Assembly: GCF_013839425.1 (NCBI RefSeq)
Contig: NZ_JACDNP010000012.1
Coordinates: 1 to 63,710 of the forward strand
From: Halorhabdus salina
GTDB lineage: Archaea > Halobacteriota > Halobacteria > Halobacteriales > Haloarculaceae
Direction: 5' to 3'
Length of the DNA stretch: 63,710 nucleotides
The translations under genes were made by a program, and so were the position numbers. The notes under the pieces are model-generated. The model saw nothing but the letters and a program-made list of their open reading frames with translations. It ran no database searches and was not told where the DNA came from. Numbering within the stretch: the stretch's first letter is position 1; the number at the start of each line of letters is the position of its first letter. Positions 2,951 to 59,050 of this stretch are shown here, one piece after another.

Positions 2951-3153
2951 GTCTGACCGTCGTCTCAGTAGCTGTGACTCGGGTGGATACATCTACCAGA
3001 CAGATCTGGCTAGTACCGACGAATACCTGTTGGCGATGAGCACTTGTGCCGACAAATGGCTACGAAGTGTACTGTTGTGACTTGGTGTGTCCAGCTATGC
3101 CCAAAACTAACTCAACGTTCAAGGGAGGGAAGGCCCAATCTCTACGTATCCAA

Positions 3154-3543
3154 ATGACGGAGACGATCACAGTCTTGCTGGTCGACGAGGATCAGGACAT
3201 CCTCGACATCACGGCCACGTTTCTCGAACGGGAAGACGAAGCACTGGACGTACTGCCAGTGACTGAGACAGCGACAGCGCTCGAAACAGTCCAAGAGCAG
3301 CCAGAGCGCGTCGATTGTGTGATCAGTGACTACAGCATGCCCGAGATGACTGGCGTCGAGTTTTTCCAGTCTGTCCGGGAGGTTGATCCGGACGTTCCGT
3401 TCTTCTTTTTCACCGGTCGTGACCGTCAGCAGATCGAAGCCGAACTCGGTGAGCAGTCAGTCACCGGCTACGTCCAGAAGGGGACTGGTACCGAACGATA
3501 TGCCGACCTGGCGACAGAGATTCGTGACGCGGTTGACGCCTGA
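3154..3543 (+). CDS. Stand-alone response regulator receiver domain
   Basis: A 129-residue single REC domain. The acidic pocket is VDEDQD (residues 10-15), the phosphoacceptor is Asp59 in CVISDYSMPEMTG, the conserved Thr is in FFFFTGRD, and the Lys is in YVQKG. There is no output domain, so it works as a phosphorylation relay or through a partner protein. A hybrid histidine kinase gene lies at 39 kb and carries a similar receiver. The ATG at 3154 gives a standard REC start; the frame extends upstream but adds non-domain sequence. The 200-base gap upstream (2951-3153) shows no gene. Confidence 0.85.
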   Translation: MTETITVLLVDEDQDILDITATFLEREDEALDVLPVTETATALETVQEQPERVDCVISDYSMPEMTGVEFFQSVREVDPDVPFFFFTGRDRQQIEAELGEQSVTGYVQKGTGTERYADLATEIRDAVDA

Positions 3544-3673
3544 TCAGGCTCTGGTAGACGCGAGATCAGTTCGTTCTCTACTGTGCCCGGTCGGTGTTGG
3601 CGAGCCATCGATCGGCAATCGACCGATCCGAACACTCGCCGTTGCAAAACCCAGTCGCCCCAGGATCTGGTGT

Positions 3674-4456
3674 TTATCTTCCGTCGAACGTGGGTTCGCG
3701 ATCTTCCTGGAACGCGTCGATTCCTTCCATGAGGTCGTCCGTGTCCCGGAGCAACCCGAAGGCGCGTGATTCGATTTCAAGCCCGGCCTCGATATCGTCC
3801 TGGCCCTTGTGCATCGCACGCTTGGTCAGTCCCTGGGCGATCGGTGGCCCCGCTGCGAGGTCGGCCGCGAGTTCGTCGACCCGCGCCTCGAACTCGTCGG
3901 GATCGTGGACCTCGTTGACGAACCCGTACTCGGCCATCGATTCGGCGTCGAAGTGGTCGGCCGTGAAGATGATCTCCTTGGCCCGGCCTTCGCCGACGAT
4001 CCGCTGGAGACGCTGGGTCCCGCCCCACCCGGGCATCAGCCCGAGATTGTGTTCGGTCTGTCCGAAGCGAGCGTCACTCGTGGCAATCCGGAGATCGGCG
4101 TGGGTCGCCAGTTCCATGCCACCGCCGAGACAGAAGCCGTCGATTGCCGCGAGGACTGGCATCGAACTCTCCTTGACCGCGCCGAATATTTCCTGGCCCT
4201 TCTGGGAGAGTTCCGCGACGTCGACCGCGTTCCCCTCGGTGATCGAGGAGAGGTCTGCGCCTGCCGAGAATGCGCGATCGCCTGCGCCTGCGAGAACCAC
4301 CACGCGAACCGCGTCGTCATCGTCGAGGGTTTCGATCGCGTCAGCGAGTTCCTCGAGGAGGGTCGGGCTGATCGCGTTCATCCGCTCGGGTCGATCGATC
4401 GTGAGTCGGCCGATCCCGTCCTCGCGGTCGACCAGTAGTGTTTCGTAGTCGCTCAT
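3674..4456 (-). CDS. Enoyl-CoA hydratase/isomerase (crotonase family)
   Basis: A 260-residue crotonase-fold enzyme that hydrates 2-enoyl-CoA in fatty-acid beta-oxidation. The oxyanion-hole motif AFSAGADL and both catalytic glutamates are present, in CLGGGMELA and FGQTEHNLGLMPG, as expected for a true hydratase. Its start overlaps the stop of the 3-hydroxyacyl-CoA dehydrogenase gene by 4 bases, so the two are translationally coupled and carry out consecutive steps. Chain-length preference is not evident from sequence. Confidence 0.9.
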   Translation of the reverse strand: MSDYETLLVDREDGIGRLTIDRPERMNAISPTLLEELADAIETLDDDDAVRVVVLAGAGDRAFSAGADLSSITEGNAVDVAELSQKGQEIFGAVKESSMPVLAAIDGFCLGGGMELATHADLRIATSDARFGQTEHNLGLMPGWGGTQRLQRIVGEGRAKEIIFTADHFDAESMAEYGFVNEVHDPDEFEARVDELAADLAAGPPIAQGLTKRAMHKGQDDIEAGLEIESRAFGLLRDTDDLMEGIDAFQEDREPTFDGR

Positions 4457-53473: not shown

Positions 53474-54154
53474 TCAGTACGTCCACAGCCGACGGATACG
53501 TAACTCGATTTCGGGGTAGGATTCTCGAAGCGCTCTCGGGTCGGTCTCTCCATTGATGTTGATAACGTGTACTTCCCCACGCCGATCGGTATAGACGTCC
53601 TGGAAATCGTAGACGACGCCGACCAGTTCTGTTTCAGCGGGCACGTGCTCGCTCGCCTCGAGGGACTCGATCTGCCGGTCGACGTTGTACTCGACAAGGC
53701 GGTTGATCGCCCCCTCTCGATCGACCTCGGCGGGTAAGGCGTCGACGCCCGCTTCGAGGTGGTCGGCGAGGAGATCGACGCAATGTTCGATTCCTGGCGG
53801 TTCTTCGAGTCCGTCGGTCAAGTGGTCGTACGTGGCGGTGACGGCCCCACAGCCCGTATGGCCGACGACGACCGCGACATCCGTCCCGGTGTGTGCCAGC
53901 GGATAGAGAACGTCGCCGGAGACGACTGTCTCGCCGTCGGTTCGCTGGACGACGCGGTTCCCGATGTTCCCACACGTGAAGAGATGGCCGGGATCGTCGT
54001 TGCCAAAGAGGTGATCCTGCAGGACACGCGAGTCAGAACAACAGACGGTGACCGCTTCGGGGCTTTGTCCGTCCTGCAGGGTGTCGAACCGGTCGTCGAA
54101 CGCCGCGGCGTGGGTTGCGTTACCGGCGAGCAGCGATTCGATGACGTCGCGCAT
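53474..54154 (-). CDS. Beta-class carbonic anhydrase
   Basis: A 226-residue beta-CA. Zinc ligands are Cys in VTVCCSDSR with the Asp-Arg dyad, and His and Cys in VVGHTGCGAVTATYDHL. It interconverts CO2 and bicarbonate. The ATG at 54154 (MRDVIESLLAGN) is the domain start; upstream in-frame sequence is unsupported. It lies on the opposite strand 180 bases from the Lrp gene and 1 kb from dabB-dabA, so it fits an inorganic-carbon cluster. Confidence 0.92.
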   Translation of the reverse strand: MRDVIESLLAGNATHAAAFDDRFDTLQDGQSPEAVTVCCSDSRVLQDHLFGNDDPGHLFTCGNIGNRVVQRTDGETVVSGDVLYPLAHTGTDVAVVVGHTGCGAVTATYDHLTDGLEEPPGIEHCVDLLADHLEAGVDALPAEVDREGAINRLVEYNVDRQIESLEASEHVPAETELVGVVYDFQDVYTDRRGEVHVININGETDPRALRESYPEIELRIRRLWTY

Positions 54155-54332
54155 ATCCGTGAGGAACCTGCCCGGTGGTATAGTCGTTGAGATTTTATCC
54201 CGTGGAGATGGCGTGCCGGGTAGTACTGGATGACGTCGAAACGTACATGACAGATCGGCCGACCTAATATGACCGGTGGCTGGATCTTCGAGCAACGTAC
54301 AAAGGTAAGTGTCTCCCTTGCACAATACCGAT

Positions 54333-54818
54333 ATGGCCGAAACGGAGATCGACGAGGTGGATGAGGCGATCCTCTATGCCCTCCAGGAGGACGCCCGGAA
54401 CATGTCCTCGGGGGACATCGCCGAGCGAACCGGGACCTCCGACAGCACCGTTCGTAAGCGCATCCAGCGACTCGAAGCCGACGACGTGATCAAGGATTAC
54501 AGCGCCCGCGTCGATTACCAGCAGTCAGGCTATCCGCTCCGGATGTTGCTGTACTGTACCGCGTCGATCCCCGAACGCGGGGACCTGATCCCGGAGGTTC
54601 TAGCCATCGAGGGCGTCGTCTCCGTCCAGGAATTGGTCACTGGTGAGGAGAATCTGCTTGTCACCGTAGTCGGGGAATCCGACAGCGACATCACGCCCGT
54701 TGCCCAGGAACTGCTCGACATGGGACTGACCGTGGCCGACGAGGTCCTCGTTCGAACCCACGAGACGACGCCGTTTGGCAAGTTCGACCCCGACGTCTCG
54801 ACAGCGGACGAATCCTGA
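54333..54818 (+). CDS. Lrp/AsnC-family transcriptional regulator
   Basis: A 161-residue regulator. Helix-turn-helix: IDEVDEAILYALQEDARNMS, then DIAERTGTSDSTVRKRIQRLE. The C-terminal RAM-like region (VVSVQELVTGEENLLVTVVGE) binds a ligand and drives oligomerisation. It lies between the carbonic anhydrase and dabB, 350 bases upstream of dabB on the same strand, and could control both. The inverted repeat at 55052-55094 is a possible binding site. Confidence 0.9.
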   Translation: MAETEIDEVDEAILYALQEDARNMSSGDIAERTGTSDSTVRKRIQRLEADDVIKDYSARVDYQQSGYPLRMLLYCTASIPERGDLIPEVLAIEGVVSVQELVTGEENLLVTVVGESDSDITPVAQELLDMGLTVADEVLVRTHETTPFGKFDPDVSTADES

Positions 54819-55031
54819 CGTTACCGCCGGAAGTGCTGTCCCCGGCCAACGACCGTTGGTGCAAAGCACGACGTCATACGCTGACAGTCCGTTCTCTAGT
54901 GAACCGATAGCAGTCACTATCGCCAGGCCATCCGAACCATGTGGCCCCGTGGGTGAGAACAGAGGGATCATCTCGAATAGTACCTCCCGGTCCGTCACGC
55001 ACTGAACGTGCCACACCCTGAAAACATAATG

Positions 55032-55094
55032 TTTTATAATAGAGGGTATTCGAACAGTTTGTGACTAAGACAAGATTTAATAATCAGACTGTTC
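55032..55094 (+). promoter_or_regulatory. Promoter and candidate operator of the dab operon
   Basis: TTTTATAATA at 55032-55041 is a TATA-like box. Just downstream GAACAGT (55052-55058) and ACTGTTC (55088-55094) form an inverted repeat with outer TTCG/CGAA. A second AT-rich element, ATTTAATAA at 55075-55083, lies between the arms. The repeat overlaps the likely transcription start, so a bound regulator would repress. The adjacent Lrp is an obvious candidate. The rest of the 350-base gap (54819-55170) has no gene. Confidence 0.5.
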
Positions 55095-55170
55095 TCGAAA
55101 CGGTGTAGAAACGACCAGTACCGGACCAAATGTGTGGGGGGATTCCCGGAACGGTCGTGAGGGACGAACG

Positions 55171-56655
55171 ATGTCAGGACGCACCGCGAACGCGACGGTC
55201 GGATCGCTCCCGGACACGACGGCGACGAGGTCGATCGTGCCCGCGGCACTCACGTGGCTCATGTGGTCGCTGTTCACCGCGAGTGTCGGCACGCTCGTGG
55301 CCCGACTCGGAACGAGTGATGTCTGGCGAGTGACCGAAGTGGTCGCGATCGACGGGCTGACAGTCCTGCTGTGGGTGGTCGTGACGTTCTTCAGCGGGAT
55401 CGTCCACAGCTACTCGCGCCGATACATGGCCGGGAGCGCCCACGAACGGCGGTTCTTTGTCGCCGTCTTCGGCTTCACGGCGGTCGTGCTGGGGCTGGTC
55501 GCGGCCGATCACGTCCTGGCATTCGGTGTTCTGTGGCTTCTGATGGGCCTCGTGATGGCGGAACTCGTCGGGCTCGTCGATGGCTGGAAACAGGCTCGGG
55601 CGGCCGCACGCGTCGCCCGCCGGTACTTCCTGGCGAGCAGCGGGTTGCTCGGTCTCGCGCTCGGGGCCCTGTGGTGGGCGACGGGCGCGACGACGATCTC
55701 GGGGATCACCGCGGCCGCCGACGGGCTCGGCGGGTCGGTGTGGCTGCTAGCAGCCGGGGCCTTGGTCCTCGCGGCGATGATCCAGTCCGCCCTCGTTCCC
55801 TTCCACACCTGGCTGCTGGCCTCGATGACTGCTCCCACGCCGGCCTCTGCGCTGATGCACGCCGGGTTTGTCAACGCTGGCGGCATCTTACTGACCAGGT
55901 TCGCACCGGTACTCACCGTCGATCCGGCGGTCATGTTCTCGATCGTCTTGGCGGGCGCAGCCAGTGCCCTCCTCGGGAAGCTCCTCAAGTCCGTCCAGGC
56001 GGACATCAAGGGGAAACTGGCCTGCTCGACGGTCGGCCAGATGGGCTTTATGATTATGCAAGCCGGCCTCGGCTTCTTCGGGGCCGCGATCACCCATTTG
56101 ATCCTCCACGGGTTCTACAAGGCCCACCACTTCCTGAGCGCCGGCGAGGAGATCGAACGGACCACGCCAGGCGACGAGTCCACGCATTCGCCGGGTATCG
56201 TCGGTATCGCGGTCACGCTCGCAACCGGGCTGGCCGGCGGCGCGCTGTTCGCGATCCTGACGGGCAAAGGCCGCCACCTCGACAGCGGCCTCGTCCTCGT
56301 GTTGATCGTCGTCGTCACGACGCTGCAGGCGACCCGTAGCGTCGTCGGGAACTCGTCGCTGTCGGCCCTGTTCCGATACGGGGCGATCCCGATCGTCTTC
56401 CTGCCGGCCATCGCCGTCTACGCGCTCGTGTACACGGCCGTTTCGGAGATGTTGAGCGACCTCTCGGTCGTGGCGGCACCGACCGAGCTTACCGTTGTCC
56501 ACCTCATCGTCGCCGTCGGGTTCGTCGGTGCGTACCTCGCTGTCGAGACAGGTGTCTACGAGCGCAGCCGGCGGCTCTACGTGGCATTGCTGAACGCGAG
56601 TCACCCGCCCGCAAGCACCGTGCTGACTGCCAGGGAGGATTACAATGAGTACTGA
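55171..56655 (+). CDS. dabB: DabB: NuoL-like membrane subunit of an inorganic carbon transporter
   Basis: A 494-residue membrane protein with about 13 helices, related to the proton-translocating NuoL/MrpA family. Features include FFSGIVHSYSRRYMAG, LVPFHTWLLASMTAPTPASALMHAG and KGKLACSTVGQMGFMIMQAG, with conserved Lys and His for the proton path. Together with DabA it couples an ion gradient to CO2 hydration and bicarbonate accumulation. It overlaps dabA by 11 bases. The ATG at 55171 (MSGRTANATVG) follows the operator region; an upstream GTG (55132) lies in it. Confidence 0.9.
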   Translation: MSGRTANATVGSLPDTTATRSIVPAALTWLMWSLFTASVGTLVARLGTSDVWRVTEVVAIDGLTVLLWVVVTFFSGIVHSYSRRYMAGSAHERRFFVAVFGFTAVVLGLVAADHVLAFGVLWLLMGLVMAELVGLVDGWKQARAAARVARRYFLASSGLLGLALGALWWATGATTISGITAAADGLGGSVWLLAAGALVLAAMIQSALVPFHTWLLASMTAPTPASALMHAGFVNAGGILLTRFAPVLTVDPAVMFSIVLAGAASALLGKLLKSVQADIKGKLACSTVGQMGFMIMQAGLGFFGAAITHLILHGFYKAHHFLSAGEEIERTTPGDESTHSPGIVGIAVTLATGLAGGALFAILTGKGRHLDSGLVLVLIVVVTTLQATRSVVGNSSLSALFRYGAIPIVFLPAIAVYALVYTAVSEMLSDLSVVAAPTELTVVHLIVAVGFVGAYLAVETGVYERSRRLYVALLNASHPPASTVLTAREDYNEY

Positions 56656-59050
56656 ACACACCATCGAAAACAGCATCGAGAAGGCAGCGACAACCGTCGG
56701 CTCGGTCTGGCCGATCCACTCGTTCGTCACGGCCAACCCGCTGTCGGGTTTCGAGGATACGCCCTTCGAGCAGGCAGTCCGGCAGGCGGGCGAGCTACTC
56801 GGCGGCCGTGGCTACCCCGATCCGGGAACGTTCCGGACTGCCCTCGAAGACGGCCGGATCGACCGCGAGGTGCTGGCGACCGAACTCGCCGAACGGGGAT
56901 TCGAGGCGGACCCGGAAGCACTGCTCGACCGCATGGATGCGACGGCCCGGACGGAAACACCCGACACCGCGAGCGAACGCGTCGATCACGTCCTGACGAA
57001 ATGGCTGTCGGTGTTCCTCGACGAAGGACACGCCGAATGGGCAATGCCTGATCGGGAGGAAGGATTCTATATCGCGTTCCGTGCAGTGGCCTCACACGAC
57101 AGTCATGTCCCCGAGACCGGAATCGTCGCCGACCTTCCCGAGCGTCCGTGCGATGCCATCGAAGCCGTACTGGAGGAATACCCCGAGAGCCAGTGGGTGC
57201 CGATCTTCGAGGAACAACTGGCGGCCCTGCCCGGCTGGACCGGGTTCATCAAGCAACGTGCTGCAGACGGGGGGAACTGGCAGTCGATGTATCCCATCAC
57301 ACTGGTGGAGTATCTGGCCGTCCGCTTCGCGCTCTGTGACGGCTTCGGTGTCGATATCGAGCCCGCTGTCGGCCAGGCAAACACCGAGGCCGACGCATGC
57401 GACGACATCGCGGCGGCGTTCCTCGGGGCCTGGGAGCGGAGTTACCGGAGCGAACTCGTCGAGGGCGTCGCTGTTGAAAGTCAATCACTCACCGAAAGTA
57501 AGTCCACGAGTCGGCCAGACGCCCAACTGGTGTTCTGTATCGACACGCGCTCGGAAGTCATCCGCCGGCACGTCGAGGCCACGGGCGACTACGAGACCCA
57601 CGGCTACGCGGGCTTTTTTGGCGTCCCGATGGAGTACCAGGGCTACGACGCCGAGCGGTCGGTCAACGCCTGTCCACCGATTGTCGATCCACAGCACCGT
57701 ATCACCGAGATGCCGACCGACGACGAAGCGACGGCGAGTCATGATCGCTGGTCGCGGCTCCGTGGGGCTGCCGGTGACGTCATCGAGACCCTATCGACGA
57801 ACCCAGCCACCGCCTTTGGCTTTGTCGAGAACGCGGGCAGCGGCTACGGACTGTCGCTCGTAGCCCGCACGCTCGTCCCCGGCCGCCTGAACGACGTTTT
57901 CGACGCCGCCGACGATGCGGTCCCCGGCGAACACGAGTTCTGTGACCCGCTCGTCGATTACCAGCACACCTACGCCGGCGATCTGCCGGTCGGCCTAACC
58001 CACGACGAGAAGGTCGAGTACGCCGCGACCGCGTTCGAACTAATGGGCATCGAGCAGTTCGGCCGATTGTTCGTCTTCGTCGGGCACGCCAGTGAGACGA
58101 CGAACAACCCGTACGATTCGAGCCTGGACTGTGGGGCCTGTGCCGGCAACCCCGGTGGCCCGAACGCCCGTGTCCTCGCGGCGATCTGTAATGACGATGC
58201 AGTCCAGATAGCGCTTCGCGAGCGCGGTATCGAGATCCCCGAGGACACCGTCTTCGTCGCTGGCGAACACAACACGACGACCGACGAGATCGAACTGTTC
58301 GACGATAGCGTCCCCGAGAGCCACGCTGCCGATATTAAGAAGCTCCGGAGAGATCTGGCCGCCGCTCGCGAGGGGAGCGCCGCCGAGCGCATCGCATCGA
58401 TGGGTACTGACGGGACCGCGGGCGTCACCGAGATCGAGCGCCGGGCGGCCGACTGGGCCGAGACGCGCCCCGAGTGGGGGCTAGCGGGCAACGCCGGCTT
58501 CGTGATCGGTCCCCGTGAACTGACGAGCGATCGCGACCTCGACGGCCGTGCGTTCCTCCACTCCTACGATTACACGATGGACCCCGATGGCGACGCCCTC
58601 GAGGCGATATTGACGGGGCCACTGGTCGTCACCCAGTGGATCAACGCTCAGTACTACTTCTCGACGGTCGATCCCGCCGTCTACGGCAGCGGGTCGAAGA
58701 TCACCCACAACCCAGTCGGCAACGTCGGCGTCTACCAAGGCAACGGCGGCGACCTGATGACCGGCCTCCCGATCCAGTCGCTGTTTGCGGCCGACGACGT
58801 CCCGTATCACCAGCCGCTCCGTCTCTCGACGGTCGTCCACGCGCCGGTCGATCGCGTCACCGACGTGCTGACCGAACACGAAGAAGTGCAGGAACTGCTG
58901 GACAACGACTGGCTCTCGCTTTCGGTCGTCGATCCGACACAGGACCACCGCGTCTTCCACTACGACGGTCAACTCGCCTGGACGCCGGCGAGCGAACCGA
59001 TCGCCGACGAATCGGCGGTCCCGGAAACGCCCGCCGTCGCGGACGACTGA
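56645..59050 (+). CDS. dabA: DabA: UPF0753/DUF2309 carbonic-anhydrase-like subunit
   Basis: An 801-residue soluble protein. The zinc site predicted from Halothiobacillus DabA is conserved: Cys298 and Asp300 in VFCIDTRSEVIRRH, His481 in VGHASETTNN and Cys496 in SLDCGACAGNPGG; the His-to-Cys spacing of 15 equals that of the bacterial enzyme. It is thought to be a vectorial carbonic anhydrase on the cytoplasmic face of DabB. Starts 11 bases inside dabB. Confidence 0.93.
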   Translation: MSTEHTIENSIEKAATTVGSVWPIHSFVTANPLSGFEDTPFEQAVRQAGELLGGRGYPDPGTFRTALEDGRIDREVLATELAERGFEADPEALLDRMDATARTETPDTASERVDHVLTKWLSVFLDEGHAEWAMPDREEGFYIAFRAVASHDSHVPETGIVADLPERPCDAIEAVLEEYPESQWVPIFEEQLAALPGWTGFIKQRAADGGNWQSMYPITLVEYLAVRFALCDGFGVDIEPAVGQANTEADACDDIAAAFLGAWERSYRSELVEGVAVESQSLTESKSTSRPDAQLVFCIDTRSEVIRRHVEATGDYETHGYAGFFGVPMEYQGYDAERSVNACPPIVDPQHRITEMPTDDEATASHDRWSRLRGAAGDVIETLSTNPATAFGFVENAGSGYGLSLVARTLVPGRLNDVFDAADDAVPGEHEFCDPLVDYQHTYAGDLPVGLTHDEKVEYAATAFELMGIEQFGRLFVFVGHASETTNNPYDSSLDCGACAGNPGGPNARVLAAICNDDAVQIALRERGIEIPEDTVFVAGEHNTTTDEIELFDDSVPESHAADIKKLRRDLAAAREGSAAERIASMGTDGTAGVTEIERRAADWAETRPEWGLAGNAGFVIGPRELTSDRDLDGRAFLHSYDYTMDPDGDALEAILTGPLVVTQWINAQYYFSTVDPAVYGSGSKITHNPVGNVGVYQGNGGDLMTGLPIQSLFAADDVPYHQPLRLSTVVHAPVDRVTDVLTEHEEVQELLDNDWLSLSVVDPTQDHRVFHYDGQLAWTPASEPIADESAVPETPAVADD

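Follow-up and report, generated by a model that had tools for sequence, protein, structure and literature searches.

How would a haloarchaeon that lives as a heterotroph employ a machinery for accumulating dissolved inorganic carbon (DIC), and what controls this machinery when a passive carbonic anhydrase (CA) is encoded beside it? The question is raised by a stretch of 63,710 nucleotides of Halorhabdus salina (assembly GCF_013839425.1, contig NZ_JACDNP010000012.1, positions 1 to 63,710), hereafter the window, in which lrp, dabB and dabA follow each other on the plus strand and a beta-CA gene lies divergently on the minus strand (Table 1). An original prediction had joined these genes into one inorganic-carbon cluster for adaptation to low CO2 in a brine of low gas solubility, a conclusion that is not supported as stated. 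We find that dabB and dabA are accompanied by a conserved regulator of the Lrp/AsnC family and preceded by a phased array of three palindromes, its candidate operator, which is absent in front of the beta-CA gene and of lrp. We favour as the probable explanation that the haloarchaeal dab operon is a regulated, switchable and energy-driven supply of HCO3- for phosphoenolpyruvate (PEP) carboxylase, with the passive CA standing outside the operator.

Protein family and structural comparisons agree with the genes named in the original prediction, the beta-CA, Lrp, DabB and DabA products matching PF00484, an AsnC-type helix-turn-helix (HTH), PF00361 and PF10070, respectively. DabA covers the whole PF10070 profile (positions 1-747 of 747, 880.5 bits) and aligns to the solved DabA2 of Halothiobacillus neapolitanus (Table 1). 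The functional roles described in DAB2 for the zinc ligands, the Asp-Arg dyad, a leucine, the finger glutamate and the proton path (PMC13144422) were transferred to DabA and DabB of the window through alignments with the DAB2 proteins, and conservation was read from 161 haloarchaeal sequences, namely those of the window and of 160 retrieved loci (regions of up to ~16 kb around DabA, from 160 of the 239 DabA-bearing genomes). The four zinc-site residues C298, D300, H481 and C496 correspond to DabA2 C351, D353, H524 and C539 and have the predicted bacterial spacing (C-x-D, and a Cys 15 residues after the His); all four are kept in 161/161 DabA. The zinc ligands C298, H481 and C496, the dyad D300-R302, the finger glutamate E395 (DAB2 Glu444) and L613 (DAB2 Leu658), which replaces the canonical Gln/His, are likewise invariant in 161/161. 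S303, H542, D547, R608 and W611 are also as in DabA2, D547 being kept in 158/161 and W611 in 159/161 sequences. Differences from DabA2 to the window protein are A703 to G658, L629 to M586, F375 to Y321 and V696 to A651. DabB retains the seven proton-path residues S239, H243, K293, S299, H322, H326 and K330 (S256, H260, K310, S316, H339, H343 and K347 in DAB2), each present in 160 or 161 of the 161 loci. Median identity of the window proteins to the 160 homologues is 64% for DabA and 61% for DabB. We have little doubt that the pair is a DAB (DIC-accumulating) complex. DabA and beta-CA are present in one copy each in the H. salina genome. Elsewhere, DabA is split across two matches in four genomes (G332, G254, G353, G345) and reduced to short remnants in two (G272, G205), reflecting operon decay or assembly errors, and two genomes (G384, G300) have two full-length copies on separate contigs.

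The regulator is the most constant companion of these genes. In 160 of the 161 loci (window included) dabB is preceded on its own strand by an Lrp homologue, more often than chance would allow; in the sole miss (L042) the DNA ahead of the DabA match is shorter than 900 bases. Named genomes scanned for DabA gave 80 loci, haloarchaeal without exception; an Lrp match is present in 77 of them, and two of the misses have little upstream DNA. Identity of the window Lrp to 46 orthologues is 77-88%, to be compared with 44% for its best paralogue in the same genome. Its N-terminal HTH is recognized by PF13404 (47.8 bits) and the fold model combines the HTH helices with a beta-alpha-beta-beta-alpha-beta domain. 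Top Foldseek matches of the model are Lrp/FFRP proteins; the small protein 2cvi, which we take to be a stand-alone RAM, has TMt 0.74. As judged from gene order and identity, this Lrp is dedicated to the dab operon, highly conserved and orthologous across the haloarchaeal loci.

Among the gapped palindromes sought in the DNA that precedes dabB, CGAAC-N5-GTTCG occurs in 37 of 160 regions (shuffle mean 0.2) and AACAT-N1-ATGTT in 27 of 160 (shuffle mean 0.1). A weight matrix of 15-bp sites, built from 92 of them, gives a site of at least 12 bits, the cut-off used, in 141/160 dabB upstream regions and in 1.1% of shuffles. Since this test is partly circular, matrices were also trained on one half of the regions and tested on the other, with hits in 66/80 and 73/80. 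The sites are phased: a second one is found at 30-31 bp in 117 of the 141 loci and a further one at 60-62 bp in 71, and spacings not adjoining 30-31 or 60-61 bp occur in at most 3 loci each. The 76-bp array blocks comprise 137 distinct sequences. In the window the three sites, AAAACATAATGTTTT, CGAACAGTTTGTGAC and TAATCAGACTGTTCT, follow in steps of exactly 30 bp; site 1 is the top match in the whole 63.7 kb, the next one scoring 14.0 bits, and within one mismatch it is found at a single place in its own genome, with one other place within two mismatches. The TATA-like element TTTAATAA comes after sites 1 and 2 and is overlapped by site 3, an arrangement that suits activation at partial and repression at full occupancy; other loci too have a TATA-like word, at an offset of 55-56 (or 25) relative to their best site. 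The pairing of this candidate operator with the neighbouring Lrp is probable. Accordingly placed sites were also sought in front of the two other genes. None of the 100 lrp upstream regions scored has a site at 12 bits (60 more could not be anchored), and autoregulation of lrp through a dab-type site was discarded; for the CA genes 1 of 54 upstream regions reaches 12 bits, which is chance level, and sharing of the dab operator by CA was discarded too.

Several observations weigh against a dedicated Lrp acting through this array. No site is found at 10 bits in 13/160 loci. Locus L274, from a Haloquadratum metagenome-assembled genome, has DabA and DabB matches and 6 kb of upstream DNA with no Lrp match, which makes it a natural test of the pairing. 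The Lrp effector domain PF01037 is not among the 25 of 30 Pfam matches listed for Lrp, and the fold model is of moderate quality (pLDDT 62). A first Lrp tree was distorted by very long branches; in a smaller tree a single clade of DAB-linked Lrp is not rejected (p-AU 0.563), so that one such clade may exist, being compatible with long-branched trees and not proven by them. In an alternative reading the array belongs to another regulator or to the basal promoter and the Lrp controls something else. In its favour, the array overlaps the TATA-like element, and predicting Lrp sites is difficult, many of them being degenerate (PMC2995911, excerpts). We regard this reading as unlikely: Lrp is the gene that is nearly always beside the array, palindromes with AT-rich centres phased at about three helical turns are familiar from archaeal Lrps, whose sites are reported to lie two or three turns apart (PMC2995911, excerpts), site 1 hardly recurs in the genome, unlike a basal element, and such sites are missing upstream of lrp and at chance level upstream of CA.

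In the regulatory scheme that we favour, the Lrp would bind the three palindromes that precede dabB at intervals of about three helical turns. Partial occupancy would activate the operon and full occupancy would repress it, the balance being set by a ligand of the C-terminal domain. DabB, which is NuoL-like, would pass an ion down its gradient along a path completed by the membrane-dipping finger of DabA (Glu395), and this flow would drive CO2 hydration to HCO3-, in that direction only, at the buried zinc site (Cys298, His481, Cys496 and the pair Asp300-Arg302). The product would feed PEP carboxylase and other carboxylations of a heterotroph devoid of RuBisCO.

The nature of the ion is where the haloarchaeal proteins depart most from DAB2. 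Two features argue against a plain transfer of its mechanism: the lysine of transmembrane helix 7 (TM7; DAB2 K235) is Gln in 158/161 haloarchaeal DabB (one has Arg and two have gaps), and its partner aspartate D185 is not kept in the alignment. In the absence of both residues coupling may differ from that of DAB2, and their loss may be compatible with either protons or sodium. Among five bacterial DabB encoded on plasmids, the TM7 position is Lys in Methylocystis, a Dysgonomonadaceae and Salinivibrio, Arg in Pantoea, and has no basic residue in Staphylococcus pettenkoferi. Mutants of the DAB2 ion pair have growth yields lowered by 30-60% and partly retain function (PMC13144422), so the pair tunes the complex and does not define the DAB family; judging from these alignments, it is a trait of the DAB2 sub-type and not a family-wide one. 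Missing the pair, as does the S. pettenkoferi homologue, the haloarchaeal complex might be an MpsAB-like bicarbonate importer driven by the steep Na+ gradient of brine instead of a proton-driven CO2 hydratase, Na+ coupling having been proposed for MpsAB (PMC6689103, excerpts; PMC13144422). We consider this doubtful, because the zinc site, the finger glutamate and the whole proton path of seven residues are retained, a CA-like zinc site makes sense for CO2 and less so for HCO3- import, and the DAB2 pair mutants still function in part.

The beta-CA was the other member of the cluster originally predicted. Its motifs CxDxR and HxxC are intact in the window (CSDSR...HTGC). In 54/161 loci and in 22/49 genera a beta-CA with intact motifs is no more than 7 kb away from dabA. 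By genera, it is downstream and convergent in 13 and upstream and divergent in 3, the latter including every one of the six Halorhabdus loci. It shares the strand in 4 genera, being upstream in 2 of them and downstream in the other 2, and two distant arrangements account for 1 genus each. This linkage exceeds chance, which by our estimate would produce it in at most ~1% of genomes, kinship inflating the counts. In the window the CA gene is divergent from lrp and is therefore outside the dab operon. Its upstream region has no dab-type operator (best score 1.4 bits), as is the rule among the 54 loci, and a single regulated cluster of CA, Lrp and DabAB is therefore not supported. That 96/161 loci have no CA-family gene in the region covered, and that CA has no dab operator, could suggest that the proximity is an incidental leftover of gene order with no functional link, an improbable account in view of the count of 54/161 loci and 22/49 genera set against chance (estimated for one CA per ~3.5 Mb) and of the four near and two distant orientations, whose spread is less inflated by kinship than the number of loci.

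Eleven further loci (L048, L066, L107, L108, L119, L122, L128, L133, L155, L165, L190) encode a CA-like protein between lrp and dabB. The zinc-site His and Cys are kept in 11/11 and the first Cys in 10/11 (one sequence is truncated), the catalytic Asp is replaced by Met or Leu in 10/10 readable sequences and the dyad Arg is absent in 9/10 readable ones. From these replacements the protein is possibly a dead CA turned into a sensor or a DAB accessory.

Why would an organism keep both enzymes? The original prediction had raised the concern that CA dissipates an accumulated HCO3- pool, and the same concern is published (Fan 2021, PMC8552792, excerpts). Such coexistence is no peculiarity of this genome: 203 of the 239 DabA-bearing haloarchaea carry a beta-CA-family gene. 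Among 391 genomes of the class, DabA is found in 239 and PF00484 in 351, a count that covers the beta-CA family and includes its CA-like proteins lacking the catalytic Asp. Both occur in 203 genomes, DabA only in 36, CA only in 148 and neither in 4 (Fisher p 2.9e-5, computed ignoring kinship). One or the other is thus found in 387/391 genomes, and DabA occurs in 36 of the 40 genomes without a beta-CA-family gene, which fits interchangeability of DabA and CA. A general need for DabA is contradicted by the 152/391 genomes without it; DabA is therefore dispensable. We propose that the divergent beta-CA would be a cheap passive source of HCO3- outside the operator and that DAB would be switched on once CO2 runs short; such alternation between DAB and CA is a tentative idea.

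The metabolic context agrees with the anticipated heterotroph relying on an anaplerotic carboxylase. Next to a DabAB that looks functional, the H. salina genome encodes one PEP carboxylase. The RuBisCO large subunit was sought in this genome and not found, and RuBisCO was discarded as the HCO3- consumer. PF01039, the biotin-type carboxyltransferase, was not found there either, 12 of 14 control genomes having it, and bicarbonate demand may therefore fall mainly on PEP carboxylase. A search of the same genome for a SulP transporter (PF00916) found none.

Table 1. Features of the dab locus in the H. salina window
Feature	Position	Strand	Remarks
beta-CA (beta-carbonic anhydrase)	53474..54154	-	226 aa, PF00484 91 bits, CxDxR and HxxC intact
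CA/lrp divergent intergenic region	54155..54332	.	178 bp
Lrp/AsnC-family regulator	54333..54818	+	161 aa, N-terminal HTH and C-terminal beta-alpha-beta-beta-alpha-beta domain
Candidate operator palindrome 1, AAAACATAATGTTTT	55021..55035	.	20.9 bits
Candidate operator palindrome 2, CGAACAGTTTGTGAC	55051..55065	.	6.8 bits, 30 bp from site 1
TATA-like element, TTTAATAA	55076..55083	+	overlaps start of site 3
Candidate operator palindrome 3, TAATCAGACTGTTCT	55081..55095	.	7.9 bits, 60 bp from site 1
DabB, NuoL/MrpA-like membrane subunit	55171..56655	+	494 aa, PF00361 134 bits, aligns to 9rd0_B
DabA, zinc subunit	56645..59050	+	801 aa, PF10070 880 bits, 9rd0_A E=1.4e-110

The likeliest start of beta-CA is the ATG at 54154, its frame being open up to a TTG at 54325 that would overlap lrp; those of Lrp and DabB are at 54333 and 55171. 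The last 11 bases of dabB are shared with dabA. The locus is flanked by ordinary genes for an archaeal shikimate kinase and a chorismate mutase on one side, and on the other by genes for a hexapeptide acyltransferase-like protein, an MscS-like channel and the diadenylate cyclase DacZ. In many other loci (L087, L104, L120, L133 and others) lrp and dabB are separated by a gene of the amidohydrolase family (~338 aa) in opposite orientation, which is annotated in L288 at 3100-4116.

Haloarchaeal DabAB is a known kind of system that had been predicted before: DAB in haloarchaea was reported in COGNAT 2017 (PMC5700660, excerpts), by Pfeiffer 2021 (PMC8305020, excerpts) and in a 2024 minireview (PMC10880623, excerpts). 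The Haloferax volcanii pair HVO_2410/HVO_2411 belongs to the same family and was predicted from DAB2 to be a carbon dioxide transporter; the excerpts of that account mention neither Lrp, nor an operator array, nor CA (PMC8305020). Among open-licence papers we found no publication on a DAB-linked Lrp or its operator; excerpts of the Haloferax mediterranei Lrp paper (PMC8229911) concern another Lrp, beside glnA. As far as searched, the Lrp linkage, the array in front of dabB, the recurrent proximity of CA and the frequent coexistence of DabA and CA appear to be new. The locus is thus ordinary in kind, and what is new and open to testing is its regulatory layer. DabAB of heterotrophs have been found by homology, seldom with a regulator or a condition assigned to them, and a dedicated Lrp with a defined candidate operator, kept over haloarchaeal families, makes the low-CO2 idea directly testable. 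It could be pushed further, to a separate DAB branch rewired at both ends, with Na+ coupling after loss of the TM7 pair and a dedicated three-site Lrp switch whose RAM-like domain senses the state of inorganic carbon or of anaplerosis, so that the energy-driven HCO3- supply alternates with an often adjacent passive CA, a combination that we hold to be quite improbable.

H. neapolitanus DAB2 (PDB 9rd0; PMC13144422) has in common with the H. salina system the dabAB pair, the zinc site, the Asp-Arg dyad, Leu658, Glu444 and the proton path; it differs in that the host here is a haloarchaeon without RuBisCO and in the DabB positions K235, replaced by Gln, and D185, not kept. Bacterial dabB often has a LysR gene upstream, where haloarchaeal dabB has Lrp instead. 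Staphylococcus MpsAB also supplies DIC in heterotrophs and is interchangeable with CA (PMC6689103 and PMC8552792, excerpts), as reported from mutual complementation (PMC6689103, excerpts). The S. pettenkoferi homologue shares with haloarchaeal DabB the missing TM7 lysine; the proposed Na+/HCO3- symport of MpsAB (PMC6689103, excerpts) is a difference. In Firmicutes CA and MpsAB are reported to coexist rarely, CA mitigating the benefit of the transporter (Fan 2021, PMC8552792, excerpts), a rule against which run the frequent coexistence of CA and DAB in DabA-bearing haloarchaea and their recurrent neighbourhood. With the archaeal Lrps that bind phased sites (PMC2995911, excerpts) the regulator shares the HTH and a site spacing of about three turns, and its predicted fold may be RAM-like as well. 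It differs from them in its lack of a site upstream of its own gene, in all the regions scored, and in its target, a DIC-accumulation operon, which would make it an archaeal Lrp that may respond to the status of inorganic carbon.

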